This document shows, one piece after another, positions 15,659-34,972 of a stretch of DNA of 64,000 nucleotides (position 1 is its first letter; the number at the start of each line of letters is the position of its first letter). Under the pieces are notes generated by a model, which was not told where the DNA came from, made no database searches, and was given only the letters and a program-made list of their open reading frames with translations. Location: contig DULJ01000048.1 of assembly GCA_012840465.1 (NCBI GenBank), positions 124,001-188,000 on the forward strand, written 5' to 3'. The translations under genes were made by a program, and so were the position numbers. Source of the DNA: Caryophanales bacterium (GTDB lineage Bacteria > Bacillota > Bacilli > Bacillales > Bacillaceae_J).

Positions 15659-16105
15659 TTACTTTCTTAATTGAGTATAAATCTCATGATCTATTTTATT
15701 AGCAAGTTCAACATCATATGTTTTTTCATATCCTGGTACCGCATTAATTTTCCCACCATAAAAAATGATATCTTCCACACTATCGATCTCTACTGTTACT
15801 ACTCTAAACTTCATTGTTCCTTGCATTATTGCTGAAACATTTCCAGTACCTTTTATTTCATAACAACTTTCAGGACCAACTACATTAAGAACTATATATG
15901 GATCATTTTCAATATTTTCAATACTTGAGGATTTATGACCTAATGCAAACTTAATTTTCTCACCACTTTCATGCGCAAATAACCAAGAAATCGTACTGAC
16001 TGTAGGTTTTTTTGTTTCTTTATCTACAGTAATGAGAGATATAATTCTTTCACCTTGTAAAAAGTCTATTAACTCTTTAGTTAATTTTTCTTTAATTTTT
16101 GACAT
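15659..16105 (-). CDS. Pyridoxamine 5'-phosphate oxidase-family (split-barrel FMN-binding) protein
   Basis: A small protein of 148 residues with a PPOX-like split barrel. IISLITVDKETKKPTVSTISWLF is the first strand pair, HKSSSIENIENDPYIVLNVV the FMN phosphate-contact region, and CYEIKGTGNV the next. Such proteins bind FMN or related cofactors, and some act as reductases or haem- or stress-related proteins. It follows the LLM flavin monooxygenase by 30 bases, and the two probably form one unit ending at the terminator. A role in supplying reduced flavin to the monooxygenase is possible, but nothing in the sequence proves it. Confidence 0.72.
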   Translation of the reverse strand: MSKIKEKLTKELIDFLQGERIISLITVDKETKKPTVSTISWLFAHESGEKIKFALGHKSSSIENIENDPYIVLNVVGPESCYEIKGTGNVSAIMQGTMKFRVVTVEIDSVEDIIFYGGKINAVPGYEKTYDVELANKIDHEIYTQLRK

Positions 16106-16135: not shown

Positions 16136-17260
16136 TTACTTTGATATGTTCAAATTCGAGCTATTCACATTCCCACGTAACCCCCGCTCAGCAAGGATTG
16201 GTAATACATGATCACGGAAATAAGGGAATTCAGCATTATAATCAACAAACGATAAGGTGGTTCCTTTAAATCCTGCTTCAGCAAGTGCAGTGATTCCGTC
16301 GGCGACTTGTTGTGGTGTTCCCACTAACGGAAATCCACCATGTCCTAGGGCAAACCGTTCACGCAATAAATTTAAAACTTCATGTGGGAAAGAATAGCAA
16401 TTAGCGAATTGCATTTTAATAACATTTTCAACAGCTGTCCAATCCGCGTTCGTTCTGGCAGCATAATCCCAATATCGAAGCGCCTCCTCCTCGGTTGGAC
16501 GGCAAATGACATGGGAAAACGTTAGAACATCAACATCCCGACCGTTTTCAGCCGCTTGATCCTTTATTGCTTGTATTTCAGCTTTTGAATTTTCCAATTC
16601 GATCGCTGGTGTGAATAAGAAATTGGCATTACGAGTTGCGAAATCGCGTCCCTCCTTTGATCCGGCGGCATTGATAATCGGAATATCACTTTCTGGGCGA
16701 GGGTCACCTTTTACACGTTTAAGGTTGAAATAGTTTCCTTCCCAATCAAAATAGTCTTCTTTCTGCCATAGCTTTTGAATGATATCAAACCACTCTTGCG
16801 CATATCCGTAACGCTCATCGTGACTATCAGATAAAGCAAGCCCTAAAGCCTCGTATTCTGGTCGGTGCCAGCCTGCAACAATATTCAAACCAGCACGACC
16901 GTTTCCAATTTGATTCATCGTTACTAGCTGTTTCGCAACAACGACCGGATGATTGATAGCAGTATGAATCGTCGAGATGACACTAATATTTTTTGTTGAT
17001 GCCAAAAGTCCTGCTGCCCAAGTGGTCGTCTCAAGAACGGAACCATGAAAATCAATTTCTTCGCCCGGAGTACCTACCCATCGTGCTACCGGCAGCATAA
17101 AATCTATGTCTGCTTCATCTAACATCTGCGCAAGTTTAAGATTGTTTTCCCATGAATTTAACCATCTTTCAGGAGCCTTTGTAATCGTCATTCCTCCAAC
17201 ACAATTTGTACAAAACGTACCTAGTAAAAAACGATCCTTTCTAAACATAGAATTCACCAT
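16136..17260 (-). CDS. LLM-class flavin-dependent monooxygenase (RutA/SfnG-like)
   Basis: A luciferase-like TIM-barrel flavoenzyme of 374 residues. The segment LNIVAGWHRPEYEALGL matches the RutA pyrimidine monooxygenase pattern (VTGWQKPEYEQMG), and the C-terminal GHGGFPLVGTPQQVADGI is the flavin-binding end typical of the class. RutA-like members use a flavin-N5-oxide or peroxide to break amide, C-S or C-halogen bonds and need FMNH2 from a partner reductase. The start ATG at 17260 has a perfect AGGAGG; a longer in-frame version would extend into a palindromic repeat and is rejected. It lies downstream of the amine-oxidation cluster, after a 237-base gap. Substrate unknown. Confidence 0.85.
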   Translation of the reverse strand: MVNSMFRKDRFLLGTFCTNCVGGMTITKAPERWLNSWENNLKLAQMLDEADIDFMLPVARWVGTPGEEIDFHGSVLETTTWAAGLLASTKNISVISTIHTAINHPVVVAKQLVTMNQIGNGRAGLNIVAGWHRPEYEALGLALSDSHDERYGYAQEWFDIIQKLWQKEDYFDWEGNYFNLKRVKGDPRPESDIPIINAAGSKEGRDFATRNANFLFTPAIELENSKAEIQAIKDQAAENGRDVDVLTFSHVICRPTEEEALRYWDYAARTNADWTAVENVIKMQFANCYSFPHEVLNLLRERFALGHGGFPLVGTPQQVADGITALAEAGFKGTTLSFVDYNAEFPYFRDHVLPILAERGLRGNVNSSNLNISK

Positions 17261-17281
17261 TATTTTTCCTCCTATCAAATT

Positions 17282-17468
17282 CGCCTTGGCGTATTTGCGC
17301 CCAGATTTTATCGAGCTCGCTCGATAATTACCTTTTAAAATCTGTGGCATCCGCCGGAGGCTTTAACTTTATTCAGCAGGGGTTGGTACCCTCACTGAAT
17401 TTAAAATACTAATTTGCATTCATCTCACCACTTATGGAAGTGGGAGACTTCTGCTAAATGAAGTTAAA
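17282..17468. repeat. Palindrome-rich element, possible IS200/IS605-type end or structured RNA relic
   Basis: The arms at 17362-17378 (TTTAACTTTATTCAGCA) and 17452-17468 (TGCTAAATGAAGTTAAA) are inverted repeats with two mismatches. They enclose two smaller hairpins, GGGT/ACCC at about 17380-17392 and CTCACCACTT/AAGTGGGAG at about 17424-17446. Between 17282 and 17340 there are further palindromes (CGCCTTGGCG, TATCGAGC-TC-GCTCGATA). The density of hairpins and the lack of a reading frame suggest an element end, a MITE or a structured leader. It sits between the amidotransferase and monooxygenase genes. The IS605 link is from memory of similar Bacillus repeats and is uncertain. Confidence 0.45.
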
Positions 17469-17497: not shown

Positions 17498-18214
17498 CTA
17501 TTTGCAACTTTTATGTTTTAGCCTGCCTGTAGTCAGTTCACACCCAGAAAATAATGGGATTTGTTTAACATTAGTAGCTGTCGGAAAAATTGCTTGGAAT
17601 AAAAAATCATCTTGACTATGGAGTGAGGTTGATGCGCATCTAACATCATCAAGATCGAATACATACATCCGGTTATCGTCATTACCGGCATATAAAAGAG
17701 TATCTTGATCTTTTTGGAAGACAACTAAATTGGCTTTGCCCTCTAATTTCTGATGTGTTAATTCTAGTGAAATGACAGGATCCTTTTGCTCTTTTGTTTT
17801 CGTTAAATAATATTGGTATCCTATTTCACTATCAGAAGTACCTTGCAATTCATTGATAAATAAAGGACGAAACTGATCATGGTTGGTAAAATATCCATTA
17901 TGTGCAAAAGCTAAAGACTCTTCTTCATTTAAGTACGGCTGAGAATTGTTAAAGGCCATGGATTTCATTAAACTTGGTCTGCGCAAATGGACGAGATATT
18001 CTTTTGCTTCAAGCCCCTTTAGAGTTTGCGGGGCAAGAACATCATTTCTCACACCTTCGATCGCACGGTATCTTCGAATCTGTCCATTGTCACATTTCCA
18101 AGCAACACCCCATCCAAAACCGGCAATTCCATATTTATCCAGTAGACTTGCATAATGAAAAATCCATTCAATTGGAATCGATTCTTCAGATTTAACTGTA
18201 AGTAATTCACACAT
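17498..18214 (-). CDS. Class II glutamine amidotransferase-like protein (AtdA2/TdnT-like)
   Basis: 238 residues beginning MCELL, so Cys2 becomes the N-terminal nucleophile after Met removal, as in class II (Ntn) amidotransferases. Other landmarks are GIAGFGWGVAWKCDNG, VHLRRPS (substrate Arg loop) and AFAHNGYFTN (conserved NG). In proteobacterial aniline operons (tdnT, atdA2) a protein of this type sits next to the GS-like gamma-glutamylanilide synthase, where it is thought to act on gamma-glutamyl amides. Here it lies 82 bases after an 88-residue gene and near the GS-like gene, giving the same pairing. There is no synthase domain, so it is a stand-alone glutaminase or amidohydrolase module. 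The start has GGAG about 10 bases upstream. Confidence 0.82.
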   Translation of the reverse strand: MCELLTVKSEESIPIEWIFHYASLLDKYGIAGFGWGVAWKCDNGQIRRYRAIEGVRNDVLAPQTLKGLEAKEYLVHLRRPSLMKSMAFNNSQPYLNEEESLAFAHNGYFTNHDQFRPLFINELQGTSDSEIGYQYYLTKTKEQKDPVISLELTHQKLEGKANLVVFQKDQDTLLYAGNDDNRMYVFDLDDVRCASTSLHSQDDFLFQAIFPTATNVKQIPLFSGCELTTGRLKHKSCK

Positions 18215-18296
18215 CCATTCCCACTCCTAAATTAATAATCTTACTATATTCAAATAAAATCCCCATCAGGGTCATCCCCTGACAGGAATCTTATTA

Positions 18297-18563
18297 CTAG
18301 GTGATCCGTTGTTGGATCGTGTGATTCCAAGGTTTCCAGATATCGAGTGTGGAAACAACTTCCATCACTCTAGCATAATCATCACGATCAATTGAAAGCC
18401 AATCTTCTTCCTCTTCCGTATAAATACTTCTATTAATAACAGTAGCGGTTCTGACCGCCTCAGCCAACCCTTCGTAGATTCCAATTGTTTTGCGGAGGCG
18501 ATCAATTTGTTTTAGTAATTCTATGTTCAAAATCTCTACGTTTTTTTGATCCATTTCTGTCAT
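18297..18563 (-). CDS. Small uncharacterised protein (88 aa) in the amine-oxidation cluster
   Basis: 88 residues, soluble and acidic, mostly predicted helical. The first half is KNVEILNIELLKQIDRLRKT; the middle has an acidic stretch (TEEEEDWLSIDRDDYA). No catalytic motif or family was recognised. The ATG at 18563 has GAGGTGG about 7 bases upstream, and the gene is 39 bases after the GS-like gene, so it is probably really translated as part of the operon. Downstream is a small hairpin (TCAGGG/CCCTGA at about 18267-18284) before the amidotransferase gene. It could be an accessory or adaptor subunit; function unknown. Confidence 0.7.
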   Translation of the reverse strand: MTEMDQKNVEILNIELLKQIDRLRKTIGIYEGLAEAVRTATVINRSIYTEEEEDWLSIDRDDYARVMEVVSTLDIWKPWNHTIQQRIT

Positions 18564-18602
18564 TAACCTACCACCTCAGCTTTCTATCGTAGACTAATAA
18601 AA

Positions 18603-20111
18603 CTAGAAGATTTCAAAATACTCCTTATGCTCCCATTGGGTTACAATATTTTGATAGTCTGCTACCTTCTCATTCTCTACATAAGCCATGTAGCGGGAGA
18701 TTTCACTTTCTTTCATTCTAATAATATAGTCAACAAACAACTTACCCATTCTATTCTGATATAATTCATTTTCACGTAGGGAGTCGATTGCCTCCTGAAG
18801 GCTCTTCGGTATAAACTCGCGCTCATCCGTATATGCCTCACTGCTCGCTGGTCCTGGGTCTAAGCGGTTTTCTACTCCATCTAAACCTGCGAAAATCTGT
18901 GATGCAAAATACAGATAAGGATTCGCTGCCGGTTCACCAGCTCTATTTTCAAAGTGGGTCGCTTTATCTCCGTAACCTCCTAAAACACGAATCATCGTTC
19001 CACGGTTGTCAACACCCCATCCCGCACGGTCGGGTGCTAATGAATTCGGCTTGAAACGTTTATAGCCATTGATCGTCGGTGTTGTAAATACTGTTGCGGC
19101 TCTGGTATGCTTCAGGATCCCTGCAGTATATTGCTTTCCTAGTACAGATAAGGACTCCGTTTCAACTTCTGGCATAAACAGATTCTCCCCTGTATTTACA
19201 TCGACTAATGATTGATGCAAATGCCAACCACTTGAGAAAAAACCAGGGATGGAAGGGCGGCACATAAACGTTGCTAAATAACCATGTCTTTTACAAATTT
19301 GTTTAACAGCTGTTCTGAATAACAGCATTGCATCTGCCGCTTCGATTCCACGCATCGGCGCAAATGTTACCTCAATTTGGCTAGGTCCCCACTCATCTTC
19401 AATCGTGCGTAATGGTAGCCCAAGCGCCTCAATGTTTTCGACGATAAGTTGAATGACCTCATCGATTTCATCATTATGTGCTTCCAACTGATACTGGTAT
19501 CCTCTTGCAACCGGTCTTACCTTCGGCGGCTCTCCAGGTGAACCGGGTGCTCCTAAAAACTCCGGATTTATTTCATCACTTACAATCTTTGTTAATGAGA
19601 ATTCCACTTCAAGGCCTGCTATTAAATCAAAGCCTTTTCCATTTAATTCTTTTAAAGCTTTGCGACAAATTTGCCGACTGTCAAAAGGAAGTATTTCACC
19701 TGTTTTTAAGTAAGCATCCGATAAGATCCAACCGGTATTTGGAGCCCAAGGAAGAACCTTGAACGTAAGTGGGTCTGGTACAAGTGAATAGTTCGGACAG
19801 CCCGTCAATTCCTCAAGATCGAATCCGCCACCTTTAATAAACGGGTTAAACACAATCGCATTGGCTGTATCAAAAAAGAGAGGACCCGTATTAAAATCAA
19901 TGCCATCCTTAAGAGCACTCATAAAAGCTGGTATTGTTAATGTTTTCGCTCTTGAGATACCATGTTGATCAGCCCAAGCTACACGTATGACGCGAAGATT
20001 GTTCTCTTCAATTGTTTCAAAAATTTGTTCCGCCGCCTTCATTTGGTCTTCATTCCATAAATTATGGCGAGCAATAAACCCTTCATTTGTCACTTTTAGC
20101 ATTTCACTCAT
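18603..20111 (-). CDS. Glutamine synthetase-like gamma-glutamyl ligase (gamma-glutamylanilide synthase-like)
   Basis: 502 residues with both GS domains: N-terminal beta-grasp (VAWADQHGISRAKTLTIPAF) and the catalytic barrel. The barrel has LEVEFSL (Glu metal ligand), GWHLHQSL (His), NGYKRFKPNSLAPDRAGWG (glutamate/ATP Arg region) and ENRAGEPAANPYLYFA. It diverges from true GlnA and groups by motif with GSIII-like PuuA/IpuC/AtdA1 enzymes, which ligate glutamate to an amine using ATP. It lies directly after the Rieske oxygenase genes and before the amidotransferase-like gene, as in aniline clusters. The ATG at 20111 has GGAGAGG upstream. The amine substrate cannot be deduced. Confidence 0.87.
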   Translation of the reverse strand: MSEMLKVTNEGFIARHNLWNEDQMKAAEQIFETIEENNLRVIRVAWADQHGISRAKTLTIPAFMSALKDGIDFNTGPLFFDTANAIVFNPFIKGGGFDLEELTGCPNYSLVPDPLTFKVLPWAPNTGWILSDAYLKTGEILPFDSRQICRKALKELNGKGFDLIAGLEVEFSLTKIVSDEINPEFLGAPGSPGEPPKVRPVARGYQYQLEAHNDEIDEVIQLIVENIEALGLPLRTIEDEWGPSQIEVTFAPMRGIEAADAMLLFRTAVKQICKRHGYLATFMCRPSIPGFFSSGWHLHQSLVDVNTGENLFMPEVETESLSVLGKQYTAGILKHTRAATVFTTPTINGYKRFKPNSLAPDRAGWGVDNRGTMIRVLGGYGDKATHFENRAGEPAANPYLYFASQIFAGLDGVENRLDPGPASSEAYTDEREFIPKSLQEAIDSLRENELYQNRMGKLFVDYIIRMKESEISRYMAYVENEKVADYQNIVTQWEHKEYFEIF

Positions 20112-20154
20112 TATTATCCTCTCCTTATAATTGAATTTTAAATATTCAGATATA

Positions 20155-20733
20155 TCAAAGTATAAAAGTCATATTTTCATGGCCCTGGTCACTGTCAATC
20201 AAATTCACTTGTTTAACAACTATCTTCCATTCTCCATCTTCTTTTTTAAGGCGGTAGCCGTTCCAGCCTGAATATAATTTTTGTTTACCTGTTCTAAGTT
20301 CAGTTAGCACAAAATTAGCTCTTACACGGAGTTGGTCTTCACTGGCCTCCTGCCAGACTTCAATATTACTCAACATCCGCAGCGTACGAGAAGCTGGAAT
20401 TTGTGAATAGGCATAACCAGTACGAAGTCGATAAATACGATCTTCAAGACGTCTTCGGTCATCAAAGGCATGGGAAACTTCCTTCAGCGGGTTTCCCCCG
20501 CCAGGTGTAATCGGAACCCAATAGAGACATTCTGAACTAAATAAATCAAGCCAATCTTCCATTCTACCTTCATCAACCAGGCGCGACTCCCGAAACAAAA
20601 ACTGTTCTATTTCGCGACAAGTCTCAGGACTGACTTTGCCTACTTCCAAACTCCAATCCTTCAACCCATCCAGAATTTCTGAGTAGTATTTGTTATTGAT
20701 ATAATAGGAAACCTTTGAACTATCTTTTATCAT
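20155..20733 (-). CDS. Rieske aromatic ring-hydroxylating oxygenase, beta subunit
   Basis: 192 residues of the small-subunit (NTF2-like/SnoaL fold) family. It has the hallmark ESRLVDEGRMEDWLDLFSSE near residues 48-67, YWVPITPGGGNP and the central HAFDDRRRLEDRIYRLRTG. The beta subunit is structural in the alpha3beta3 oxygenase. The start overlaps the alpha-subunit stop by 4 bases (ATGA), so the two are translated together in equal amounts. The C-terminal VVKQVNLIDSDQG is typical. Confidence 0.92.
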   Translation of the reverse strand: MIKDSSKVSYYINNKYYSEILDGLKDWSLEVGKVSPETCREIEQFLFRESRLVDEGRMEDWLDLFSSECLYWVPITPGGGNPLKEVSHAFDDRRRLEDRIYRLRTGYAYSQIPASRTLRMLSNIEVWQEASEDQLRVRANFVLTELRTGKQKLYSGWNGYRLKKEDGEWKIVVKQVNLIDSDQGHENMTFIL

Positions 20734-22064
20734 ACCGGTGACACACCTCCTTTAACATTTTCACAAAGCGTTTTCATTGTTGGCTGACACATCAATCGTT
20801 TCCATTCTTGGTAATAGTTACGGATGTGCAATTCGTCCGTTACGGGACCTGTCACAACCCCATGTTCGTCCACTGTTTGGCGGCCCGGTATTCCCAGCCC
20901 GCGGCCAGTATGAATCCATTCCACTTCAGGTATTGTTAAGCCAAGATGACATTCTTCAAAATTGGTCATATCATCAGGCTCACCAAATGCCGGAAAATCT
21001 TCTTGGGTGCGCATTCTTAGTAAATTAATCTCTTCAGGTAAACCTTCTACCATTGTTGAATACCAAATCAACTCAGTTTTATCGACAGCATAGGGTTGAA
21101 TCACTTGAATTTGATTTCCAATCAAACAAAGGTTTGGAAATATATTAAGATTCATTTGGGCACCGATAGCTTGATCCAATAAGGCATCAGCTTGTTCTTG
21201 GTACCGCTCCCTAATCATTTCTTCATATACTTCTCTTCCAGGCTGCGGGCGCTGTTGTTTCCAGAAATCTCCGGTGTTTTTATAGTTGGGACGTTGGTCA
21301 ATAAACGTATGCCCATTGCCAAGATATTGAACTACCATTGGACCATAATCAGGACTTTCAGCAAAATAAGCCATATCCTTTTCTTCACCCATCCGCTCTG
21401 CTGTTTCAAATAATGAACGATGTGAGAACGATACATGGTATCCATCAGCTGCATTATCGTATGTTAATTTCCAATTGCCTTTATAAACCATGCGGTGTGC
21501 ATTGCCGACTAAAATGTTCTTCCCATCGTAACGATCAAGCCATTGATCCAATAATTCCCTTGCAGCACCTAAGTAATCAATGAGGGCAGGAGCATTTAGA
21601 TTTAACGTTCCAAAAATAAAGCCCCGGTAGCTTTCTACTCTTGCTTGCTTTAACCCCCATTCGTTCGTATCAAAATCCTCTCCATATGCTTTAGGCCAAG
21701 GTACACCAGCTAACTCCCCGTTGTTTTTGAAGTTCCAGCCATGATAGGGACACGTAAACACCTTGGCAGAACCCCGTTCACTCCGGCAAACCGTAGCCCC
21801 TCGGTGTGTACAGCGATTGAACAATGCCCGAAATTCATCATGGCGATCTCTAACCACAATGATTGGACGGCTGCCCAGGTAACCGGTTTTATAGTCATTA
21901 ACATTCGGAACTTCACTTTCATGTGCCAAGTAAACCCACGTCTGTCCAAAGATCTTAGTCATTTCCTCGGCAAAAATTGCAGAATCAGTGTAAAGCTTTT
22001 GATGAACCCGATCATGTTTAATAAAGTTATCCCAATTATGTTCGTTTTTATTTGTTCCATTCAT
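20730..22064 (-). CDS. Rieske aromatic ring-hydroxylating oxygenase, alpha subunit (aniline dioxygenase-like)
   Basis: 444 residues. The Rieske 2Fe-2S motif C-x-H-x17-C-x2-H lies at about 85-108 (NRCTHRGA ... FTCPYHGW). The mononuclear iron site shows YDNAADGYHVSFSH, with His near 210 and 215. The later stretch FPAFGEPDDMTNFEECHLG is in the region where the third ligand or partner residues sit. It activates O2 to hydroxylate an aromatic or amide substrate. Start ATG 22064 is preferred over GTG 22073 because AGGTGG is correctly spaced only to the former. The association with a GS-like and an amidotransferase-like gene points to an aniline-type amine substrate. No reductase or ferredoxin gene is in the window. 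Confidence 0.93.
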   Translation of the reverse strand: MNGTNKNEHNWDNFIKHDRVHQKLYTDSAIFAEEMTKIFGQTWVYLAHESEVPNVNDYKTGYLGSRPIIVVRDRHDEFRALFNRCTHRGATVCRSERGSAKVFTCPYHGWNFKNNGELAGVPWPKAYGEDFDTNEWGLKQARVESYRGFIFGTLNLNAPALIDYLGAARELLDQWLDRYDGKNILVGNAHRMVYKGNWKLTYDNAADGYHVSFSHRSLFETAERMGEEKDMAYFAESPDYGPMVVQYLGNGHTFIDQRPNYKNTGDFWKQQRPQPGREVYEEMIRERYQEQADALLDQAIGAQMNLNIFPNLCLIGNQIQVIQPYAVDKTELIWYSTMVEGLPEEINLLRMRTQEDFPAFGEPDDMTNFEECHLGLTIPEVEWIHTGRGLGIPGRQTVDEHGVVTGPVTDELHIRNYYQEWKRLMCQPTMKTLCENVKGGVSPV

Positions 22065-22085
22065 TCGTTCCACCTACCTCATTTT

Positions 22086-22862
22086 TTATAGTGCCAGGTA
22101 GCCGCCATCAACTACCAAGGAAGAACCCGTTACAAAGGACGCTTCATCACAGGCTAAAAAAACAATGCAATTCGCAATTTCTCTTGGATCTGCATATCTT
22201 CCAAGCGGCTGTACGCCTTCAACCGCCTGCCAAAATCCATCTAAATCTGGCGTATGCTCAGTTGTAATCTGATTTGTCTTTGTCACCCCAGGTGCCACAC
22301 ATGTTACACGGATTCCACTTTTTGCATATCGTGTTGCTAATGACCTGGTCATCTGTAAAATTGCAGCCTTTGTCATGTTATAAAGGAACGTACTTTTGCC
22401 CATCATTTCTTGACCAACATAGCCTGAAACCGAACTTAAATTTACGATTACTCCTCCGTTTTGTTTCATCATCTCTGGAATAACACTTTTGCAGTTTAAA
22501 AACATGCTTTTCAAATTAACATTGATAACATGGTCAAAATCTTCAACCGATGTTTCCGTTATATCTTGAATCCAATGGATCCCAGCATTATTGACTAAAA
22601 TATCAATCTTACCAAAGCGTTCAAGCGCTGTTTCTTTTAATAATTGTGCCGTTGTTTCCAAAGAAACATCTCCACTAACGGTCGTGCATCGATCAGGACA
22701 ATCCAACTCCGCAGCAATTTCTTCTAAACTAGCTTGACTAATATCATTTAAAACTAATTTTGCCCCTTCTTCCGCAAATCTTTTGGCTGTTGCTCTTCCA
22801 ATCCCACTTCCTGCTCCAGTGATGATTGCTACTTTATTAGTTAACCTTTGCTGGTTCTGCAT
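22086..22862 (-). CDS. SDR-family dehydrogenase
   Basis: 258 residues with TGAGSGIG near the N-terminus, NNAG, Ser in NLSSVSGYVG, the YNMTK active-site pair and C-terminal VVDGGYLAL. The start ATG at 22862 has AAAGGAGG and overlaps the upstream flavoprotein gene by 26 bases; only 21 bases separate it from the Rieske alpha gene. In dioxygenase operons an SDR commonly rearomatises the cis-diol, so that role fits here. Other alcohol or keto substrates are equally compatible with the motifs. Confidence 0.87.
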   Translation of the reverse strand: MQNQQRLTNKVAIITGAGSGIGRATAKRFAEEGAKLVLNDISQASLEEIAAELDCPDRCTTVSGDVSLETTAQLLKETALERFGKIDILVNNAGIHWIQDITETSVEDFDHVINVNLKSMFLNCKSVIPEMMKQNGGVIVNLSSVSGYVGQEMMGKSTFLYNMTKAAILQMTRSLATRYAKSGIRVTCVAPGVTKTNQITTEHTPDLDGFWQAVEGVQPLGRYADPREIANCIVFLACDEASFVTGSSLVVDGGYLAL

Positions 22863-24078
22863 TGCGAATTTCCTCCTTTAAGAATGCTGGTAGATCTTCA
22901 GGATTAAGTCCTAAATCGATAACAGCGATTTGATCAAGAACCGCATCCTCATTTGGCGGCATGATTGGCGCAGTAAACGCATCACGAACCATTCTTTCAA
23001 ATGGCAGACCTTTTACTAATCCGTGAGCACCGCAAGCGATTGATGCTGATCGAACGGTTTTGCTTACCGCTTGCATCATGATATATTTTGCACGTAAGCA
23101 AGCGGCATACGTTTCAGGTCCAGGTCCTTTCGTATCATGTAGCCAGGCTGCATGATACACCATTAGTCTTGCTGCTTCCATTTCCGAGAAAATTTCACCA
23201 GCACGTAGGCGCATTGCAGGATGATAGCCCATAGGCTGTGAGTATCCTTTTGGTTTACGCGTTGTTAACGTTTCTTTTACCCAGTTCGCAATACCGCGAC
23301 CAATGCCGTAGTACATCGAGGCAAATGTACCAAATGCCCAAGCTGCATTTTTAAAAATAAAGGATTGTAAGAAAGCTTCTGTTTTATGAAGAACAGCACT
23401 TTCCGGTACAAAAACATCATTATATTCAACTGTGTTACTGCGAGTGGCGCGCATTCCCAATGTATCCCAAACATCAATAACGTTAATGCCTTCCGATTTA
23501 GTTGAGATAAAGAAGCCAATGCTGCTTTGCGGATTGTCGTTTTCTTCCGGATGGGCAAACAGATAAACATAGTCACTGGCTTCAAACATAGATGCAAACG
23601 CTTTCCTTCCATTTAATATATAACCGCTATCGACTTTTCTGGCAATCAACGAAGGTGTGTAAGATTGCCCGATTAAACTGGACGATGTAGGTTCTGAAAC
23701 AGATTGGCAAATTAATTTCCCTTCTTTGATGACAAGGTCAGCTATTTCTTGCTTCTTTTCTTCCGCGATATCCGGATTTTCCATGATAGCAGCAGTTCCT
23801 GCTGCATGCATATTCCATGACATCGCTGTTGCTGCGCAGCCTTGTGCTAATTCCTCAACAGCAATTGTGTATCCCAAGAAACCAGACCCTAATCCGCCAT
23901 ATTTTTTTGGAATGGTTAAACCAAATAAACCAGCTTCAAAGAGCTTTTGATAGTTTTCAACTGGTGATGTACGATTGCGGTCATGCTCGTCGGCACGTAA
24001 AGCAAAATCCTGTGCCAGCTCCTTACAAATTTCCTTCCATTTCTTTTGCTCCGCTGTTAATTCAAAATTAATTGACAT
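22837..24078 (-). CDS. Acyl-CoA dehydrogenase-like flavoprotein
   Basis: 413 residues with the ACAD fold: N-terminal helical domain (LFGLTIPKKYGGLGSGF), a beta domain (SGYILNGRKAFASMFEASDY) and a C-terminal helical domain (SIACGAHGLVKGLPFERMVRDA). The C-terminus ends with IMPPNEDAVLDQIAV, unusual for fatty-acid ACADs. Within this fold there are both CoA-ester dehydrogenases and FMN-dependent monooxygenases (DszC-like, nitroalkane-type), and the cluster context makes the latter plausible. It is the first gene of the tight flavoprotein-SDR-Rieske set. The ATG at 24078 has AGGAGAG upstream. Substrate unknown. Confidence 0.8.
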   Translation of the reverse strand: MSINFELTAEQKKWKEICKELAQDFALRADEHDRNRTSPVENYQKLFEAGLFGLTIPKKYGGLGSGFLGYTIAVEELAQGCAATAMSWNMHAAGTAAIMENPDIAEEKKQEIADLVIKEGKLICQSVSEPTSSSLIGQSYTPSLIARKVDSGYILNGRKAFASMFEASDYVYLFAHPEENDNPQSSIGFFISTKSEGINVIDVWDTLGMRATRSNTVEYNDVFVPESAVLHKTEAFLQSFIFKNAAWAFGTFASMYYGIGRGIANWVKETLTTRKPKGYSQPMGYHPAMRLRAGEIFSEMEAARLMVYHAAWLHDTKGPGPETYAACLRAKYIMMQAVSKTVRSASIACGAHGLVKGLPFERMVRDAFTAPIMPPNEDAVLDQIAVIDLGLNPEDLPAFLKEEIRNAEPAKVN

Positions 24079-24146
24079 CCATCATCTCTCCTAATTTATT
24101 AAATTTTTTATGTTAAAAAACATAGTTGTTAAATTTGTTTAGAAAA

Positions 24147-25559
24147 TCAACCTGAAATATTATTCACATTATTTTTCTCAGAAGAAGTAAACTGGCTCTT
24201 TAAATAATTCAATCCAAGATATAGGACAAAGGCACATACCGTTGAGATTATAAATGGTACTTGGAACCAATTTTGTTGGTATAAGCCCATACCAGTAACG
24301 GTACTTATAACTAGTGTGATTAACCCATTCCAATTAATAGAGGGAATGTCTTCAAGCTTTCCTATACCTTTTTGCCCGATATTTAATTTTCCTCTAACCA
24401 CATAGTAATCTGTTAAGACAATCGTGACCCAAACACATAGAAGTACACTACCGATTGTTAAGAATGCTTCAATATAATGAAGGATGTTTCCAAAGATAAA
24501 GATAAGAGAAATAATGTTGGCAAGTACAACCATCACCGCTCTTCCTGGTCTCCAGTTGAAGGCGGTATCAAACAGATTTACAAGTGCAAGCGCTCCTTCA
24601 TAGGAATTCCCAACCTGTACTTTTGACTGCGAGAAAATGATCGTTAACAGCCCCCAAAAGCCTCCTGCCAATACCAGCGTAATCCCCGGATTCGTAATGG
24701 CAGCCATTCCAGCTGCAGCGGGGTCCATTCCTTGTTTCAAGAAATAGTTATTTGTTAATTGATAGCCGAAATAGGTAATGATTGCTCCAAAAAACATCGT
24801 CACACCAAATAACGAGAAATTCGAAGCAACGCTTATTTTGACGACATCCCGAGGAGATTTTGAAAATCTGGTAAAATCCGAGACAACAATAGCCAGTAAA
24901 CCAGCCAGTACTACAGTAGCATTCAGGGCGATTGAAAAACCTTGGCCAATAGTCATATTAGGTACAAGAATACCGTGGCTAACTGCTTTTACTAATGAAC
25001 CCTCCTTCATTAATAAAAACACCATAAAGAGCAACATTAGGAATAACAATGGAATCATAATTTGTGCAACCCGGGCAACTAATTTATTGCCGAAAAGGGA
25101 AAGGACGACCCATATACCTGTCAATATCAGATAAAAGATCAGTTTAATCGTTAAATTGGGTTCTATACCAAAATAAAAGAATATCGAGTTTCCTATTAAT
25201 ACACTTTCCATTCCAAGAAAACCGATAATCATAAAAGCCCAAATCAAGGAACCGATGGCGGAACCTCTTGTTCCGAAAGCATAGGCTCTAGAAATGATAT
25301 TGCTTGAAAAACCGTCACGAAATGAGATTACGCCTAATGATATGGTGAAAAAAGTACTGACAAGAAAGGCTATAAAGGCTGCGAGCATTCCCATCCAAAA
25401 TCCAGCCATAAATGTGACCAACCCACCGGTAAGTAAAACAGCTAAACTGGAACCAATTCCGACCCCAACTGCGGCAAGATCCTTCCACGGTCTCCTCATT
25501 TCAGCTGGAACAGCCTCAAGCGAGTAGTCCTCCATCATGTTTTCTAATTTTTGTGACAT
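24147..25559 (-). CDS. NCS1-family permease (cytosine/hydantoin/allantoin-type)
   Basis: A polytopic membrane protein of 470 residues, with about 12 hydrophobic segments, of the nucleobase-cation symporter-1 family. It has GVGIGSSLAVLLTGGLVTF at the first helices, FGTRGSAIGSLIWAFMIIGFLG, and TDYYVVRGKLN near the C-terminus. Family members import cytosine, hydantoins, allantoin, uracil or vitamins with Na+ or H+. Start ATG 25559 is chosen because GAGAGGAG precedes it. It lies between the hydantoinase/oxoprolinase genes and the Rieske cluster, so it is a good candidate for uptake of the cyclic amide or amine used by the neighbours. Confidence 0.88.
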   Translation of the reverse strand: MSQKLENMMEDYSLEAVPAEMRRPWKDLAAVGVGIGSSLAVLLTGGLVTFMAGFWMGMLAAFIAFLVSTFFTISLGVISFRDGFSSNIISRAYAFGTRGSAIGSLIWAFMIIGFLGMESVLIGNSIFFYFGIEPNLTIKLIFYLILTGIWVVLSLFGNKLVARVAQIMIPLLFLMLLFMVFLLMKEGSLVKAVSHGILVPNMTIGQGFSIALNATVVLAGLLAIVVSDFTRFSKSPRDVVKISVASNFSLFGVTMFFGAIITYFGYQLTNNYFLKQGMDPAAAGMAAITNPGITLVLAGGFWGLLTIIFSQSKVQVGNSYEGALALVNLFDTAFNWRPGRAVMVVLANIISLIFIFGNILHYIEAFLTIGSVLLCVWVTIVLTDYYVVRGKLNIGQKGIGKLEDIPSINWNGLITLVISTVTGMGLYQQNWFQVPFIISTVCAFVLYLGLNYLKSQFTSSEKNNVNNISG

Positions 25560-25599
25560 CTGAAATCTCCTCTCTACCAATGAATCTGATTTCTCCTAA

Positions 25600-25637
25600 G
25601 TGACAGACTCCTACAATTTGTTTGTAAAGCCTGTCAC
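25600..25637 (-). other. Stem-loop between the B-subunit gene and the permease gene
   Basis: An outer stem GTGACAG/CTGTCAC (25600-25606 with 25631-25637) encloses an inner stem TACAA/TTGTA (25612-25616 with 25622-25626). There is no following T-tract, so it is more likely an mRNA processing or stability element, or an operator, than a terminator. Confidence 0.35.
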
Positions 25638-25671
25638 ATTACTAGGAAAACTTACAAAAACAACCACTTTG

Positions 25672-27441
25672 TTATAATAACAATTGCTTTCTTAATAGAT
25701 TAGTAGCTTCGAGATTTACTTTTCCTGTCTGCGGGTCCACTTCTACCCCATACTCACTTTTCGCTTTCTCGATCGATAAAAGTCCGTCTGATATTTCCTC
25801 TTGAACCTTATCGATATCACGCAATACCGGTAAACCGTAGCCACCGCCACCTCCACAATACATTTCAAGCCAGGTCCCTTTTGGCACTTGGAATACCATA
25901 TCTTTGGAACCTACCTTTTGTGTAGTTCCATCAGGAAGATAGAGGAGATAATTATTGCTCGTGCCTTCCCGGCCGCCAAATAATCCATGTGGTAATTTAG
26001 CTCCCTCATATTCCATTCCATCACCAAGTGTTCCAACGGCATTGTTGTCACCATCGATGCGGATTTTCACATAAGTTCCATACCCACCACGGTACTTACC
26101 TGCACCGGCAGAGTCTGTCAAATACTCATACGCTTCCATGAAAAAAGGATCTTTTATTTCCAACATTTCAGGATCCTGTGATCTCATGCAACCTGCCGCC
26201 CCGGCAAATCCGATGCCATTGAAACCATCAAATCCTTCCAAACCACCTTGACCACCTTTTGCCATAAACCCAAAATCAAAGTAGGGTTCATTTTTACGGG
26301 GATCCGTTCCTGTAAATACCGGTGGGCAAGCTTTACACCAGCCAGCTGTCACTTGATCCGGAACTGCATCCTTTAAGGCATTCATAATGGCTTCTAATAA
26401 AACATCAGCTATTTGATTTCCTACAATAGTAGCTGCCGGGAAGTAAGGATTCAAGATACTTCCTTTTGGAAAATAACAATCTAATGATGAGAATAATCCT
26501 TCATTTTGAGCGATCTCTGTTCCAGGATTAATTAGCATTAAGTAAGCGATTGCACAGGCCGCTTTTGCCCCTGCGGGTGGCATATTTGTAAATCCGGGCG
26601 CTTGATTATCTGTACCAGTAAAATCCATTTTTACTTTTCCACCGTCAATTGTGATTTTGACTGCAATTTTATATTTTCGTAATGGGTCAACACCATCAGA
26701 CACCATATAGCTGACACCATAATACGTTCCAGGTTTCCATTTCCGAATAATTTCTTTCGTTTGTCTTTCAGTCGCTTCAATTATATAGTTCAAGTGACTA
26801 CGGAATGTTTCCAATCCGTATTTCTCGACCACCTTAAGAAGTCCCCGTTCACCAATATTACAAGCGCCGATCATTGCTTTTACATCTTCTTCCACAATTT
26901 TCACGCGGGTATTAGCAAACAACATTTTCCATACATCACGTCTAATCTTCCCTTTTTCAACTATTTTCACGCCGGGGATTCGAATCGCTTCCTGCCATAC
27001 CTCTGTGTGCTGCGGATTATAACCTCCCGGTGTTGCACCGCCTAAATCGGTTAAATGGCCTTTACTAACCGTCCAACCTACTAATTCATCTTCATAGAAG
27101 ACCGGTTTATAGATTCCAACATCGTGAGTTTGATTGCCACCCTCATACACATCATTGTGAACAATGACGTCCCCCGGATAAAGATCATCTTTAAAGAATT
27201 CCATAATATAAGGTAGTGCCGGCTGAGCTCCAAACCCTATAATCGGGATATTAGCGCTTTGTTCCATCATTCTCGTCTGATGATCAAATAATCCGGTAAC
27301 AAAATCCCCAGCCTCATTGAAAACAGGTGAACGGGATGTTTGTTGCAGTACCTTTGCCATATCATGGGTTACAGCATTTAACCTGCGTTGAATGACTGAT
27401 GCTAGAATTGGGTTGATTACGGCTTTCTGGTTTTTATTCAT
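25672..27441 (-). CDS. Hydantoinase/oxoprolinase family, B subunit
   Basis: 589 residues of the HyuB/oxoprolinase-B type. It has NPILASVIQRRLNAVTHDMA, VIVHNDVYEGGNQTHDVG and the Gly-rich GGQGGLEGFDGFNGIGFAGA. In the C-terminal part, SAGAGKYRGGYG and YCGGGGGYGLPV are diagnostic. With the A subunit it forms an ATP-dependent hydrolase for cyclic amides (hydantoins, N-methylhydantoin, 5-oxoproline) or a related carboxylase. The ATG at 27441 has GAGGTG upstream and overlaps the A-subunit stop by 8 bases; an in-frame extension upstream overlaps the A gene and lacks a ribosome binding site. It reads towards the permease and Rieske genes. Confidence 0.9.
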   Translation of the reverse strand: MNKNQKAVINPILASVIQRRLNAVTHDMAKVLQQTSRSPVFNEAGDFVTGLFDHQTRMMEQSANIPIIGFGAQPALPYIMEFFKDDLYPGDVIVHNDVYEGGNQTHDVGIYKPVFYEDELVGWTVSKGHLTDLGGATPGGYNPQHTEVWQEAIRIPGVKIVEKGKIRRDVWKMLFANTRVKIVEEDVKAMIGACNIGERGLLKVVEKYGLETFRSHLNYIIEATERQTKEIIRKWKPGTYYGVSYMVSDGVDPLRKYKIAVKITIDGGKVKMDFTGTDNQAPGFTNMPPAGAKAACAIAYLMLINPGTEIAQNEGLFSSLDCYFPKGSILNPYFPAATIVGNQIADVLLEAIMNALKDAVPDQVTAGWCKACPPVFTGTDPRKNEPYFDFGFMAKGGQGGLEGFDGFNGIGFAGAAGCMRSQDPEMLEIKDPFFMEAYEYLTDSAGAGKYRGGYGTYVKIRIDGDNNAVGTLGDGMEYEGAKLPHGLFGGREGTSNNYLLYLPDGTTQKVGSKDMVFQVPKGTWLEMYCGGGGGYGLPVLRDIDKVQEEISDGLLSIEKAKSEYGVEVDPQTGKVNLEATNLLRKQLLL

Positions 27442-29557
27442 AAATGACACCTCGGTTCTCTTCAATAAAATGTTTAACAGATTTAGCATCCATCGTTTTT
27501 CTATACATAATGTAATTGTCATTTTTGTCACAAATCACATTAAAATAATCAGAGACGATAATTGTTGTTACTTTTTGTTCGATAATAGCCGGTCCACTAA
27601 GATGATTCCCATGAACAAGAACCTCACCATCATATACTGGTGTTTCTACTAACTTGCCGCTGTCGCCATGTGACATTGGGCGGTTTCCTTTACAAGCATG
27701 CGTTGCCGAATCACCGCGGTAATCTGTATTCTTCATATTCGGCTTTTTCGTAATACCTAATGCTGATAGATTGAAATTAACGATTTCCACCTCCATCTCC
27801 GGTGTACTGTAGCCAAATAATTGATCATGCCATTTATGAAACTTTTCTTCAATATAGTCAGTTGTAACCGTTTTCATTTCGTTGGCAGTAAAAGGAACAT
27901 TAACTTGGAAATATTGACCAGCATACATCATATCCAAGCTATACTGGAACTGCATTTCCTCTTCCTTTACACTATCACCGCTAAGCACCTTGGCGCCTTG
28001 ATCCTCAAGCTGTTGGAAGATATCACTAATTTGGGCTAATTCTATTTCTCTAGTAGATGCACGATTTACTTTTACAAAATCATGTCTTAAATCTGACATG
28101 AGCATCCCGGCTGCACAGAATATCGAAGATTCTTTTGGAATAACAACAAGTGTGCTGTCAAGTTCTTCAGCTATCGCGGCAGCGTGAAGCGGACCGGCAC
28201 CACCAGCACAAACTAGCGGGAATTCCCTAGGGTCATAGCCCCTTTTCGTACTGATTTCACGAATACCATTTGCCATATTAACATTGACCATATCAATGAT
28301 ACCTTGGGCAGCTTCTTCAACGGTTAATCCCAATTTATCCGCTATTTGTTTTTTAATAGCTTGCTTGGCACTCTCCACATCAAGCTTCATTTTTCCGCCT
28401 AGAAAATAGTCTGGATTAAGATAACCAAGTACTAAATTGGCATCCGTTACTGTTGGTAACTCTGCTCCAAAGCCATAACAGACAGGTCCTGGATGTGCAC
28501 CAGCACTTTGAGGACCAACATGGAGCAGACCGCCATCGTCAACCCAAGCAATAGAACCGCCACCCGAACCGATTGTATGGATATCGACCGTTGGCAGACT
28601 GATCGGCCAATCAGCTATTTCACCCTCCGTACGAATTAATGGATAACCATCTTTAATAAGGGCTACATCAAAACTAGTTCCACCCATATCCATCGTTAAT
28701 GCATCCATTATTCCATGTGGCTTCAAATACCAGCTTCCGGCAACTGGAGCTGAAGCAGGTCCTGATAATAAGGTGTTGGCTGCTTTTAGGATCGTTGCTG
28801 CCGGAGTAGCGACGCCACCATTGGATTGCATAATAAGTAAGGTGCCACCAAAGCAGTAATCTTCTAATTTTCTTGTTAAATTAGTTAAGTACTTTTGAAT
28901 AATAGGTCCGATGTATGAATTTAGAACCGTTGTACTAGTTCTGTCATATAAACGAGAACGCGGTACAAGTTGACTTGACAAAGTTACATAATGATTAGGC
29001 AGTTTTTCTTTAACTATTTCACCAGCTCTTAACTCATGCTCTGCGTTAGCATATGAGTGCATGAAACTGATGGCAATCGCTTCAACACCTTGCTCACGGA
29101 TATAATCGATGGCGTCATGAATATCTTGTTCTGATAAAGGTGTTACCTCCTGACCTTTATAATCCATCCTCTCATCAATACCGATCCGCAAATGACGTGG
29201 TACGAATGCTTTTGGAGAAACATATTGATTATTATAAGCATCTGGTCTAAGGCCTTGTCGCATCTCTAGCGTATCGCGAAAACCCTTTGTCGTTAGCAAG
29301 GCCGTTTTGGCACCATTATACGTAAGCGTTGAATTCGTACCAACAGTTGTTCCGTGTACAATCAATTCTATCTTATGAATGAACTCGTCAAGATTCATCC
29401 CATGATCCTGTGCCATCTCAGACAAACCATTAAAAAATCCGATAGTTGGATCACTTGGAGTAGACAATGTTTTATAAACTTGAGAGTTTCCTTCCTGATC
29501 TGTTAGTAAAAAATCGGTAAAGGTACCTCCCACATCAATGCCAATACGGTATCTCAT
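27434..29557 (-). CDS. Hydantoinase/oxoprolinase family, A subunit
   Basis: 707 residues with the ASKHA-type ATP-binding start IGIDVGGTFTDFLLTD. Further landmarks are ELIVHGTTVGTNSTLT, MDMGGTSFDVALIKDG, GSGGGSIAWVD and CAGGAGPLHAAAIAEEL. This subunit phosphorylates the cyclic amide with ATP before hydrolysis by the B subunit. Length and motifs are complete. It begins 5 bases after the M24-fold gene and overlaps the B gene. Which ring is opened cannot be decided: 5-oxoproline already has its own pxpABC genes nearby, which argues for a different substrate such as a hydantoin. Confidence 0.91.
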   Translation of the reverse strand: MRYRIGIDVGGTFTDFLLTDQEGNSQVYKTLSTPSDPTIGFFNGLSEMAQDHGMNLDEFIHKIELIVHGTTVGTNSTLTYNGAKTALLTTKGFRDTLEMRQGLRPDAYNNQYVSPKAFVPRHLRIGIDERMDYKGQEVTPLSEQDIHDAIDYIREQGVEAIAISFMHSYANAEHELRAGEIVKEKLPNHYVTLSSQLVPRSRLYDRTSTTVLNSYIGPIIQKYLTNLTRKLEDYCFGGTLLIMQSNGGVATPAATILKAANTLLSGPASAPVAGSWYLKPHGIMDALTMDMGGTSFDVALIKDGYPLIRTEGEIADWPISLPTVDIHTIGSGGGSIAWVDDGGLLHVGPQSAGAHPGPVCYGFGAELPTVTDANLVLGYLNPDYFLGGKMKLDVESAKQAIKKQIADKLGLTVEEAAQGIIDMVNVNMANGIREISTKRGYDPREFPLVCAGGAGPLHAAAIAEELDSTLVVIPKESSIFCAAGMLMSDLRHDFVKVNRASTREIELAQISDIFQQLEDQGAKVLSGDSVKEEEMQFQYSLDMMYAGQYFQVNVPFTANEMKTVTTDYIEEKFHKWHDQLFGYSTPEMEVEIVNFNLSALGITKKPNMKNTDYRGDSATHACKGNRPMSHGDSGKLVETPVYDGEVLVHGNHLSGPAIIEQKVTTIIVSDYFNVICDKNDNYIMYRKTMDAKSVKHFIEENRGVIYE

Positions 29558-29562
29558 TTACA

Positions 29563-30747
29563 TCACCTATCCTTTATTAAAATTATCTCATGGTTACGCT
29601 TAGACAAGCGTTCTGCACCATTTTTTGTAATAACAAATACATCTGACATATAGGCTGATTTGTTCATTTGTTGATTCATGATTTGCGGGTGAAAACTTAT
29701 AACCATCCCTTCTTGTAAATACAACAATTGTTCATCTTCCTCAGTTGGGACCTCCACTCCTATAAAGGAAAGTCCAGCTGGTCTAGCCACAAATGGACGC
29801 TCTATTACATCCATACCAATGGCGTGACCAGTCAAGTGACCACATATAGCACCCTCTCTTGTCGCAATCTTTTCTACCTCTGATTGAATATCTGTTACTT
29901 TCACACCCGGTTTCATCGCTTGTTCAGCGTACTCGATTCCTTTGGCAACGAGGCTTGCCATTTTCTCCATCTCCACATCGCGTTCTCCAAAACAAAACAT
30001 CCGTGAATGTTCCACCCAGTGTCCAGATGGTCCTGTAATTTCTAAAGAGACGATTAGATAATCATTTTCTTTAATAACTCGAGGTCTTGGATTTAAGAAG
30101 TACGGTTCAACCTCGCCCGGATTCTCACTTGAAAGTGTAAGGAAAAGTGTATCCTTTGCTCCTAACGCATGGACAGTTGAGTAGGCTACTGATACTGCTT
30201 CCTCCTCTGTCATACCAGGACGAATAGTTTCAATAATTTTGTCAAAGCCTGCTTCGATGATTCGATTGGCCTCTTTTATTCCGTTTATTTCGGACTCACT
30301 TTTGATGCAGCGCACTTCTTCAAAAGCAATACTGGCATCTTGCCATTGAATGTCAGGCAGCTCCTGTTGTAAACATTTAAAATCCTCTAACTTCATCGTA
30401 TTATTCAATCCAACAACTCCAACTTTTCCATTTTGCACGTTATGTTGTTTTAACATTCTAACAACCTCAAGGGCTTCATGGTCCTTTGGAAATAATGTAT
30501 CGGGTACGCGTCTGTCTGTACACCAATGCAATCCGGAAGGGAGAATTTGATACTGGGCATCCTCTAAAATTAAGCCATAGCCATAACGATGTATTAAATG
30601 ATTATCAAATAAGTATCGCAATGAACCTTTTTTACCTAAATAGGAGTCAGCTACAAATAGTAAGGCCTTATACTCCTTTTTCTCCAAAAGAGATCTTACT
30701 CGCTGTATTCGATGCTCCCTTTCGGATTTTTCAACTGTGATGATCAC
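29563..30747 (-). CDS. Peptidase M24-fold (creatinase/prolidase-like) protein with altered metal ligands
   Basis: 394 residues with an N-terminal creatinase/prolidase domain and a C-terminal pita-bread domain. Where prolidases carry five metal ligands (D, D, H, E, E), this protein shows Glu in VSLEITG, Glu in WVEHSR, His in TGHAIGMDV, His instead of Glu in VISFHPQ, and Ser instead of Glu in AYMSDVF. The dinuclear metal site is therefore probably lost. Metal-free relatives include creatinase and the ectoine hydrolase DoeA, which cleave C-N bonds of small compounds. GTG at 30747 is chosen because AGAGG is 8 bases upstream. It is the first gene of the hyu-type operon and faces the GntR regulator. 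Confidence 0.8.
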   Translation of the reverse strand: MIITVEKSEREHRIQRVRSLLEKKEYKALLFVADSYLGKKGSLRYLFDNHLIHRYGYGLILEDAQYQILPSGLHWCTDRRVPDTLFPKDHEALEVVRMLKQHNVQNGKVGVVGLNNTMKLEDFKCLQQELPDIQWQDASIAFEEVRCIKSESEINGIKEANRIIEAGFDKIIETIRPGMTEEEAVSVAYSTVHALGAKDTLFLTLSSENPGEVEPYFLNPRPRVIKENDYLIVSLEITGPSGHWVEHSRMFCFGERDVEMEKMASLVAKGIEYAEQAMKPGVKVTDIQSEVEKIATREGAICGHLTGHAIGMDVIERPFVARPAGLSFIGVEVPTEEDEQLLYLQEGMVISFHPQIMNQQMNKSAYMSDVFVITKNGAERLSKRNHEIILIKDR

Positions 30748-30806
30748 TTTTAACACCTCTTTTTAATATTTTTAATTTTCAAAATTATTTAAAACCGAAT
30801 AATTGA

Positions 30807-30836: not shown

Positions 30837-30966
30837 TAGCTTTAAATGTTCATTATTTTTACATTTAGTTATAATTTTATATCCATATATTAATAACTTT
30901 TATCAATTGAATTTTTCTAGGATTGCATCCCATTTTTTATTAGGTATTTTTAAAGATGAGGGCAGG

Positions 30967-30995: not shown

Positions 30996-31097
30996 GATTT
31001 TTATTTTTTGGAATATTATAATTATTGTAATTAACTTAATTGTATAAATAATTTACTTTTAGTGGAATTCAAAAAAACAAAGATTGAGAGGATTGAC

Positions 31098-32659: not shown

Positions 32660-32700
32660 TCTATCTTCCCTCCAAAGTATCCTTCTTCACTAACATTATA

Positions 32701-34735: not shown

Positions 34736-34787
34736 CAGAACCCCCTCCTCTCTATCATCTTCAACACCAATATTCAAAGCTTTCATT

Positions 34788-34804: not shown

Positions 34805-34916
34805 CTAAGTTTTGAATTATAGACCTATTTTAGCATAATTGTTTTTACTTGAAAAGAGGAAATTTTTGAATTGTGGGAAAAGTGAAATGGATCATAATAC
34901 TCACCAATATTGTGAC

Positions 34917-34944: not shown

Positions 34945-34972
34945 TAAAATATAATCCGTATTATAGAACATT

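Follow-up and report, generated by a model that had tools for sequence, protein, structure and literature searches.

A putative arylamine catabolic operon in a Schinkia species links a gamma-glutamyl ligase and a Rieske dioxygenase to a cyclic-amide hydrolase module

We analyzed a 64,000-nucleotide stretch (hereafter, the window) of contig DULJ01000048.1, whose host is a Schinkia species of the Bacillaceae, and found a minus-strand gene unit that joins a glutamine synthetase (GS)-like ligase and a Rieske oxygenase to an ATP-dependent cyclic-amide hydrolase and a permease. Judged from the sequence, it is reasonably probable that this unit is an inducible operon for the catabolism of an aromatic amine, which would probably arise from a cyclic amide, imide or urea. 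An earlier note had proposed an aniline-dioxygenase-type gamma-glutamylation and Rieske cluster in a Bacillaceae at 17498-24078; the ligase and alpha-subunit trees, the residues and the identities all agreed with this proposal. The seven genes that it named lie where it had placed them on the minus strand, and Pfam or NCBIfam models backed every class except that of the 88-residue open reading frame (ORF). The proposed boundary was too narrow, as the unit spans 17498-30756 and adds the NCS1, HyuB, HyuA and M24 genes upstream. The joining of an arylamine core with a lactamase-type module was absent from the literature searched and is apparently new; no Bacillota cluster of this kind was found in the open-access literature, and the glutamylation-dependent arylamine dioxygenases found there were from Proteobacteria and Actinomycetota.

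The closest solved chain to the ligase was PDB 8wwu, which showed a score of 537 bits, against 185 for the runner-up. The PDB title of this entry says only glutamine synthetase; we identified it as NpaA1 of strain JS3066 by a residue pattern (the V68-M81 loop VAIGPFFFDLVSSM is one example) that fits the JS3066 protein described in PMC11335346. The window ligase was 48.6% identical to NpaA1, 49.5% to a Delftia TdnQ-type protein, 31% to the GlnA of its own genome and 22.5% to PuuA. In the tree, 24 ligases split from GlnA and PuuA at 99/98, the window ligase grouped with TdnQ and NpaA1, and the six Bacillota ligases formed one clade (100/99); the exact place of PuuA and E. coli GlnA is unsure because of long branches. 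The ligase did not group with glutamine synthetase and stood apart from E. coli GlnA, PuuA and its own GlnA, as the earlier note had expected.

The residues pointed in the same direction. Two residues of true GS were lost (D50 replaced by N and the flap residue E327 by L), and the metal and ATP residues E129, E131, E212, E220, H269, R321, R339, R344, E357 and R359 were intact. The aromatic tunnel residues F75, F86 and W235, on or near an extra loop that is missing from both GlnAs, were all retained, and two other NpaA1 tunnel positions were changed (M81 to I and V201 to Y); mutations have shown the NpaA1 tunnel residues to be important (PMC11335346). Residue 75 is K in the SadB-type ligases and F in the window, and F75 would therefore fit an uncharged ring substrate, as judged from four sequences. 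We consider the protein very probably an arylamine gamma-glutamyl ligase. Its Gln-synt_C domain could also belong to a true or duplicate glutamine synthetase for nitrogen assimilation, an identity that was rejected on the lost D50 and E327, the amine-tunnel loop and the tree placement, and that has next to no probability in a genome carrying a separate GlnA. Relatives of the ligase also occur in other settings. Marine proteobacterial metagenome-assembled genomes (L016:9001-15846 and L019) contained three closely spaced GS-like paralogues, of which one shared 54% identity with the window ligase; these loci also had a luciferase-like monooxygenase but no Rieske match. Nostoc plasmids carry the ligase family as well; that of UHCC 0926 also encodes a Rieske alpha subunit 65% identical to that of the window, exceeding the proteobacterial alphas, and no Rieske match was present in the 19 kb covered of the Nostoc HK-01 plasmid.

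The ligase shares one operon with Rieske alpha and beta subunits of the AtdA3/A4 group. The alpha subunit contained a complete Rieske site (CxH..CxxH at 88-111) and the conserved mononuclear iron site DNAADGYHVSFSH. It was 48-65% identical to the alphas of ligase-linked plasmid clusters (Nostoc, Actinomycetota and Proteobacteria records) and at most 37% identical to plasmid-borne relatives of the benzoate and anthranilate types. In the alpha tree, BenA and another Rieske protein of the same genome fell outside (97/94), and IacC was on a long branch whose placement was not resolved. By these comparisons the alpha subunit sits with the AtdA3/TdnA1 group, and the Rieske pair very likely oxidizes the glutamyl conjugate to a diol. 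A BenC-like reductase is encoded elsewhere in the host genome.

The unit runs in the order M24, HyuA, HyuB, NCS1, acyl-CoA dehydrogenase (ACAD)-like flavoprotein, short-chain dehydrogenase/reductase (SDR), alpha, beta, ligase, p88 and the amidohydrolase GAT2. Throughout 17498-30756, adjacent genes either overlapped or were separated by gaps of 5 to 91 bases, with the beta and alpha genes overlapping by 4 bases, and 147 bases follow GAT2. The M24-HyuAB-NCS1-Rieske-ligase-p88 order was common to four Bacillaceae in the same orientation, down to 62% ligase identity. S. azotoformans kept the full order including ACAD and SDR, with genes 69-95% identical (ligase 92%); Bacillus sp. MM2020_1 kept the order without ACAD and SDR (ligase 84%); and in Bacillus sp. 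EB106-08-02-XG196 (hereafter EB106; ligase 62%), an intradiol dioxygenase replaced the ACAD/SDR position and the amidotransferase was of class I. The cluster is not a chance assembly, because its gene order is kept in these three genomes. The earlier note's link to hydantoinase-type genes and an NCS1 permease was likewise conserved, HyuB and NCS1 being found in four species and M24 being kept in S. azotoformans, MM2020_1 and EB106. Two genomes of another family of the same order (L020 and L021) had the arrangement alpha-beta-p88-class I amidotransferase-ligase-GntR. The ligase was found at E <1e-100 in only 4 of 397 sampled genomes of the order, including that of the window.

A GntR/FCD-family regulator gene diverges from the operon, and a palindrome between the two is a probable operator, as suggested by its sequence and position. 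The palindrome matched once in the window against 0.03 matches expected. S. azotoformans has the same palindrome in the corresponding position, and in MM2020_1 it was near the contig start, upstream of the M24 gene. In the window, a minus-strand promoter-like site (10/12) with a -35-like hexamer lies 8 bases downstream of it, at 30836-30807; this site is only suggestive because the scan finds such sites at approximately the chance rate. All five of the other genomes encode relatives of the GntR protein (38-87%), and these lie at the cluster in every case but MM2020_1, where the gene starts a separate short contig. In EB106 (L051:2901-7107), two paralogous GntR genes beside the operon flank an ORF read from its sequence as sulfatase-like and another read as an MFS-like transporter.

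Table 1. Features of the gene unit and its control region (positions in the window).
Feature	Position	Strand	Basis or remark
Stand-alone class II (predicted N-terminal nucleophile, Cys2) amidohydrolase (GAT2)	17498-18214	minus	GATase_6/GATase_4
p88, 88 aa, function unknown	18297-18563	minus	conserved small protein of Gram-positive aniline-type clusters
GS-like putative arylamine gamma-glutamyl ligase, 502 aa	18603-20111	minus	AtdA1/TdnQ/NpaA1 family; Gln-synt_C domain
Rieske beta, 192 aa	20155-20733	minus	Pfam Ring_hydroxyl_B 2e-29
Rieske alpha, 447 aa	20730-22073	minus	Pfam Rieske + Ring_hydroxyl_A
SDR oxidoreductase	22086-22862	minus	adh_short_C2 4e-65
ACAD-like flavoprotein	22837-24078	minus	Acyl-CoA_dh domains (Pfam)
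NCS1-type permease	24147-25580	minus	Transp_cyt_pur 3e-10; TIGR00800 50 bits, under cut-off
HyuB, small subunit of ATP-dependent cyclic-amide hydrolase	25672-27531	minus	CapB model 379 bits
HyuA, large subunit of ATP-dependent cyclic-amide hydrolase	27434-29557	minus	CapA model 745 bits
M24 metallohydrolase (creatinase/Xaa-Pro fold)	29563-30756	minus	Peptidase_M24 3e-30
Palindrome AAATGT-N11-ACATTT	30844-30866		probable operator
GntR/FCD-family regulator	31062-31814	plus	FCD + GntR domains; divergent from operon

Both flanks of the unit carry further genes. Downstream of the operon are a luciferase-like monooxygenase (16136-17350) and a PNPOx-like protein (15659-16105); S. azotoformans matched only approximately the C-terminal half of this monooxygenase (L013:11678-12208). 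The stretch at 31868-36734, which adjoins the GntR gene, contains genes for a D-glutamate cyclase family protein, an Nramp-like transporter, a LamB/YcsF-like protein and a carboxyltransferase (PxpC-like). It constitutes a 5-oxoproline-type set that is possibly unrelated to the operon.

The last gene of the unit, GAT2, had been compared with the amidotransferases of the tdn/atd operons as a class II protein. That comparison had to be corrected, as the amidotransferases of those operons are of type 1 (class I). Those of the atd, tdn and npa operons are all class I, and the window protein is therefore probably of a different fold in the same place. Its motifs, Cys2 after Met (MC), HLR, HNG and TSDSE, were invariant across three species, the PurF model matched it at 2e-9, and blastp revealed no similarity to NpaA2 or to the AtdA2-like amidotransferases (Delftia). 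The same operon place in EB106 and in L020/L021 was held by class I PuuD-like hydrolases, so that the exchange between class I and class II looks like a non-homologous replacement in one role, as far as the sequences go. EgtC provides a precedent for a class II gamma-glutamyl amidase, and the EgtC NCBIfam model matched GAT2 weakly. We consider it likely that GAT2 is a gamma-glutamyl-arylamide (conjugate) hydrolase, with the direction of the reaction read from its context. In aniline degraders, the amidotransferase hydrolyses the gamma-glutamyl conjugate and thereby averts a toxic build-up (PMC4539516). Distant GAT2 relatives were also present in Bacillota (L076 and L077), and their surroundings gave no substrate clue.

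The small protein p88 had no Pfam or NCBIfam match. Relatives were found in the same operon at five other Bacillota loci and on three Actinomycetota plasmids, and an additional Rhodococcus relative scored 71 bits. An alignment of eight sequences revealed Y48, W55, D74, P78, W79 and R86 to be invariant. In 398 Bacillota genomes, p88 was found only in its own genome, together with one short, chance-like sub-match inside a long ORF, and a sensitive hmmsearch did not find it in the proteobacterial and cyanobacterial loci examined. Its predicted structure consisted of a long helix and two short helices, with a predicted local distance difference test score (pLDDT) of 72 and a predicted template modeling score of 0.51, too weak for a fold search. 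The paper on aniline degradation by Rhodococcus DH-2 names seven genes, and p88 is not among them (PMC11596033). We propose that p88 may be an accessory protein of the Gram-positive versions of the cluster.

Upstream of the ligase-Rieske core, HyuA and HyuB both scored under the equivalog cut-offs of the caprolactamase models (for CapA, 745 bits against a cut-off of 1000), and the PDB caprolactamase matched HyuA at 558 bits. The pair is, by its model scores, a member of the two-subunit family but not a caprolactamase by the equivalog criterion. For HyuB, the GTG listed as start (27531) probably lies too far upstream; the true start is probably the ATG at about 27441, which leaves a short overlap with HyuA. 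Characterized hydrolases of the HyuAB family open cyclic amides using ATP, and IaaCE has been proposed to act on the N-heterocyclic ring of 2-oxoindoleacetate (PMC8453981). Given this precedent, the most economical reading is that the arylamine comes from an aryl cyclic amide or urea, and the presence of an ATP-driven ring-opening enzyme and an importer in one operon suggests a nitrogen-ring compound as the precursor of the amine.

HyuAB, M24 and NCS1 could instead be a separate cyclic-amide (hydantoin-like) pathway that merely shares a promoter and neighborhood with the core, the arylamine coming from outside. The core occurs without Hyu genes in L020/L021 and in Actinomycetota, and MM2020_1 carries a second M24-HyuA-HyuB trio with an ABC transporter, hence a free-standing module, in support of this view. 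However, gene order and orientation were the same in four species across the divergence of the ligase, every HyuA orthologue found above 65% identity came with this cluster (the runner-up in the 397 sampled genomes of the order had 42%), and one GntR gene and one palindrome lie upstream of all genes. We therefore regard a separate pathway as the strongest competitor and still unlikely. The second HyuA of MM2020_1 was 48% identical to that of the window, and its trio, with ABC-transporter-like genes (L052:898-9655), is on the same contig as the orthologous GntR gene. A further HyuA, 45% identical, was found on a Corynebacterium glutamicum plasmid (L078), where the surroundings gave no substrate clue.

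The earlier note had stated that no ring-cleavage enzyme is present, which is true of the cluster but not of the genome. Three catechol 2,3-dioxygenases are encoded elsewhere in the host genome (402-423 bits, cut-off 320), and no intradiol dioxygenase was found in it. A small ORF whose cysteines form a 2Fe-2S-like motif (a motif reading only) adjoins each of the three; one has a second GntR gene (33% identical) in its vicinity, and another has a BenC-like reductase nearby. On the host contigs concerned (C11, C51, C60 and C75), locus L057 contains the BenC-like reductase, and locus L055 contains another Rieske oxygenase and an extradiol enzyme. The host genome is thus rich in aromatic catabolism. 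The EB106 operon contains, besides its intradiol dioxygenase, an Fe-type alcohol dehydrogenase 48% identical to the maleylacetate reductase of Stutzerimonas CSW02, a paracetamol degrader (PMC9865377), with a 3-oxoacid CoA-transferase, a thiolase and a PcaR-type regulator as neighbors. Additionally, catA accompanies related clusters on Corynebacterium, Dietzia and Rhodococcus plasmids. In view of these ring-cleavage genes in the relatives and the genome, the pathway very likely acts on an aromatic amine and yields a catechol-type diol.

The same genes bear on two further explanations. If the pathway were of the isopropylamine (Ipu) kind and served an aliphatic or alicyclic amine, glutamylation would be followed by Rieske hydroxylation of an alkyl group; the wider ligase group also takes non-aromatic amines (PMC11335346), and ACAD and SDR could oxidize an aliphatic chain. 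We consider this improbable, since catechol-cleaving genes accompany the nearest relatives of known context, F75, F86 and W235 are kept, and the alpha and beta subunits are of the ring-hydroxylating type. Slightly less probable again is detoxification or modification of a toxic arylamine or natural product rather than catabolism. Related ligases on Streptomyces and Nostoc plasmids without obvious ring-cleavage genes would fit it, but the operon has an importer-type permease and an ATP-costly hydrolase, and the EB106 locus also encodes a 3-oxoadipate-type lower pathway.

The ACAD and SDR genes had been counted as part of the set together with p88. All three are present, but ACAD and SDR were Schinkia-specific, being found in S. 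azotoformans and absent from MM2020_1 and EB106, and they fall outside the core. The best PDB matches of the ACAD were 5z8t and 5gj7, at 147 bits against 94 for the next; its C-terminal motif is MPPNED, and the other ACAD of the window has YDGADEVH. This flavoprotein of the ACAD fold is probably not a classical acyl-CoA dehydrogenase, judging from its motif and matches. The gene kinds (ACAD, SDR, Rieske alpha/beta and a small protein) superficially match an indole-3-acetate (iac-like) pathway with IacA, IacE and IacC/D, but this was rejected as very improbable: when compared directly, an iac-like cluster carried by an Acinetobacter plasmid (L068) showed identities of only 22% for ACAD (IacA), 29% for SDR and 36% for alpha, has no p88 match and lacks the ligase, and ACAD and SDR are missing from the other Bacilli.

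Comparison with known systems revealed similar but not identical arrangements. The atd/tdn operons (Acinetobacter YAA and Delftia) resemble the window in ligase (49.5%), alpha (51%) and beta (39%) and follow the same logic of glutamylation and then dioxygenation (PMC4539516), but they have a class I amidotransferase and a reductase gene after beta, and lack p88, HyuAB, M24, NCS1, ACAD and SDR. The 1-naphthylamine dioxygenase genes npaA1-A5 of Pseudomonas JS3066 share the ligase (48.6%), F75/F86/W235 and alpha (48%), and differ in V201 and M81 (Y and I in the window), in a class I amidotransferase and in a naphthalene lower pathway (PMC11335346). The Actinomycetota aniline clusters (cad, Rhodococcus AN-22 and DH-2, PMC11596033, and plasmids) share alpha (59-61%), ligase (about 50%) and a p88 relative; unlike the window, they have their own ferredoxin and reductase, a class I amidotransferase and catA nearby, and lack Hyu, M24 and NCS1. 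CapAB and the ATP-dependent hydantoinases (IaaCE and N-methylhydantoinase) share the HyuA/HyuB architecture and cyclic-amide action (PMC8453981). The window pair differs from CapAB in its CapA and CapB scores and in its link to an arylamine module. The PuuA/PuuD putrescine cycle uses the same logic of a ligase and a gamma-glutamyl amide hydrolase, and the class I amidotransferases of EB106 and L020 match PuuD, but PuuA is distant from the window ligase and the cycle has no Rieske step. SadABD is a sulfanilate dioxygenase. Clusters of this type (Novosphingobium SA1) have a GS-like ligase, approximately 50% identical, beside a Rieske gene, but the Rieske protein is of another branch and the ligase tunnel has K75 where the window has F.

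Starting from the family memberships, residues, conserved linkage, amidotransferase displacement, regulator and palindrome seen in the sequences, we inferred an order of reactions, a class of substrate and a direction for GAT2. The NCS1 permease would import a small N-heterocycle, HyuAB would open its cyclic amide bond at the expense of ATP, and the M24 enzyme would cut a further C-N bond to free the arylamine. The ligase would then join the amine to the gamma-carboxyl of glutamate using ATP, and the Rieske pair, drawing on an electron chain whose genes lie elsewhere in the genome, would dioxygenate the gamma-glutamyl-arylamide, releasing glutamine and yielding a catechol. Surplus gamma-glutamyl-arylamide may be hydrolysed by the class II amidase, a task that falls to the class I AtdA2 in aniline operons. 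The catechol would be cleaved by the catechol 2,3-dioxygenases encoded elsewhere in Schinkia or by the in-operon intradiol enzyme in Bacillus EB106.

Several observations weigh against this scheme. The link to HyuAB, M24 and NCS1 is not universal, as the ligase-Rieske core of L020/L021 does without them, and for this reason we put the chances that these proteins feed the amine at about even. The M24 protein matched only generic dipeptidases in PDB, at 57 bits at best, with no close characterized relative there, and the NCS1 permease had no match among solved structures. The AlphaFold model of GAT2 was too poor (pLDDT 33), no dedicated ferredoxin or reductase gene is present within the operon, and ACAD and SDR find no place in the scheme.

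Tentatively, and with less confidence than in any single step above, the unit may represent a complete route, not described before, by which Bacillota process cyclic amides or ureas that are benzo-fused or N-aryl. It would comprise NCS1 import, ring opening by HyuAB and M24, gamma-glutamylation and Rieske dioxygenation to a catechol, with p88 as a new Gram-positive accessory protein and with the class I amidotransferase giving way to a class II amidase. Compounds of the benzimidazolone, benzoxazolinone and oxindole types are examples of candidates, given for testing only.

The exchange of class I and class II amidases in one place is an argument that these pathways need to clear the gamma-glutamyl conjugate, and p88 is a small uncharacterized protein that is kept in both Gram-positive phyla. 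In the Bacillaceae version, the tie to an ATP-dependent cyclic-amide hydrolase suggests a possible origin of natural arylamines and an upstream step that can be tested.

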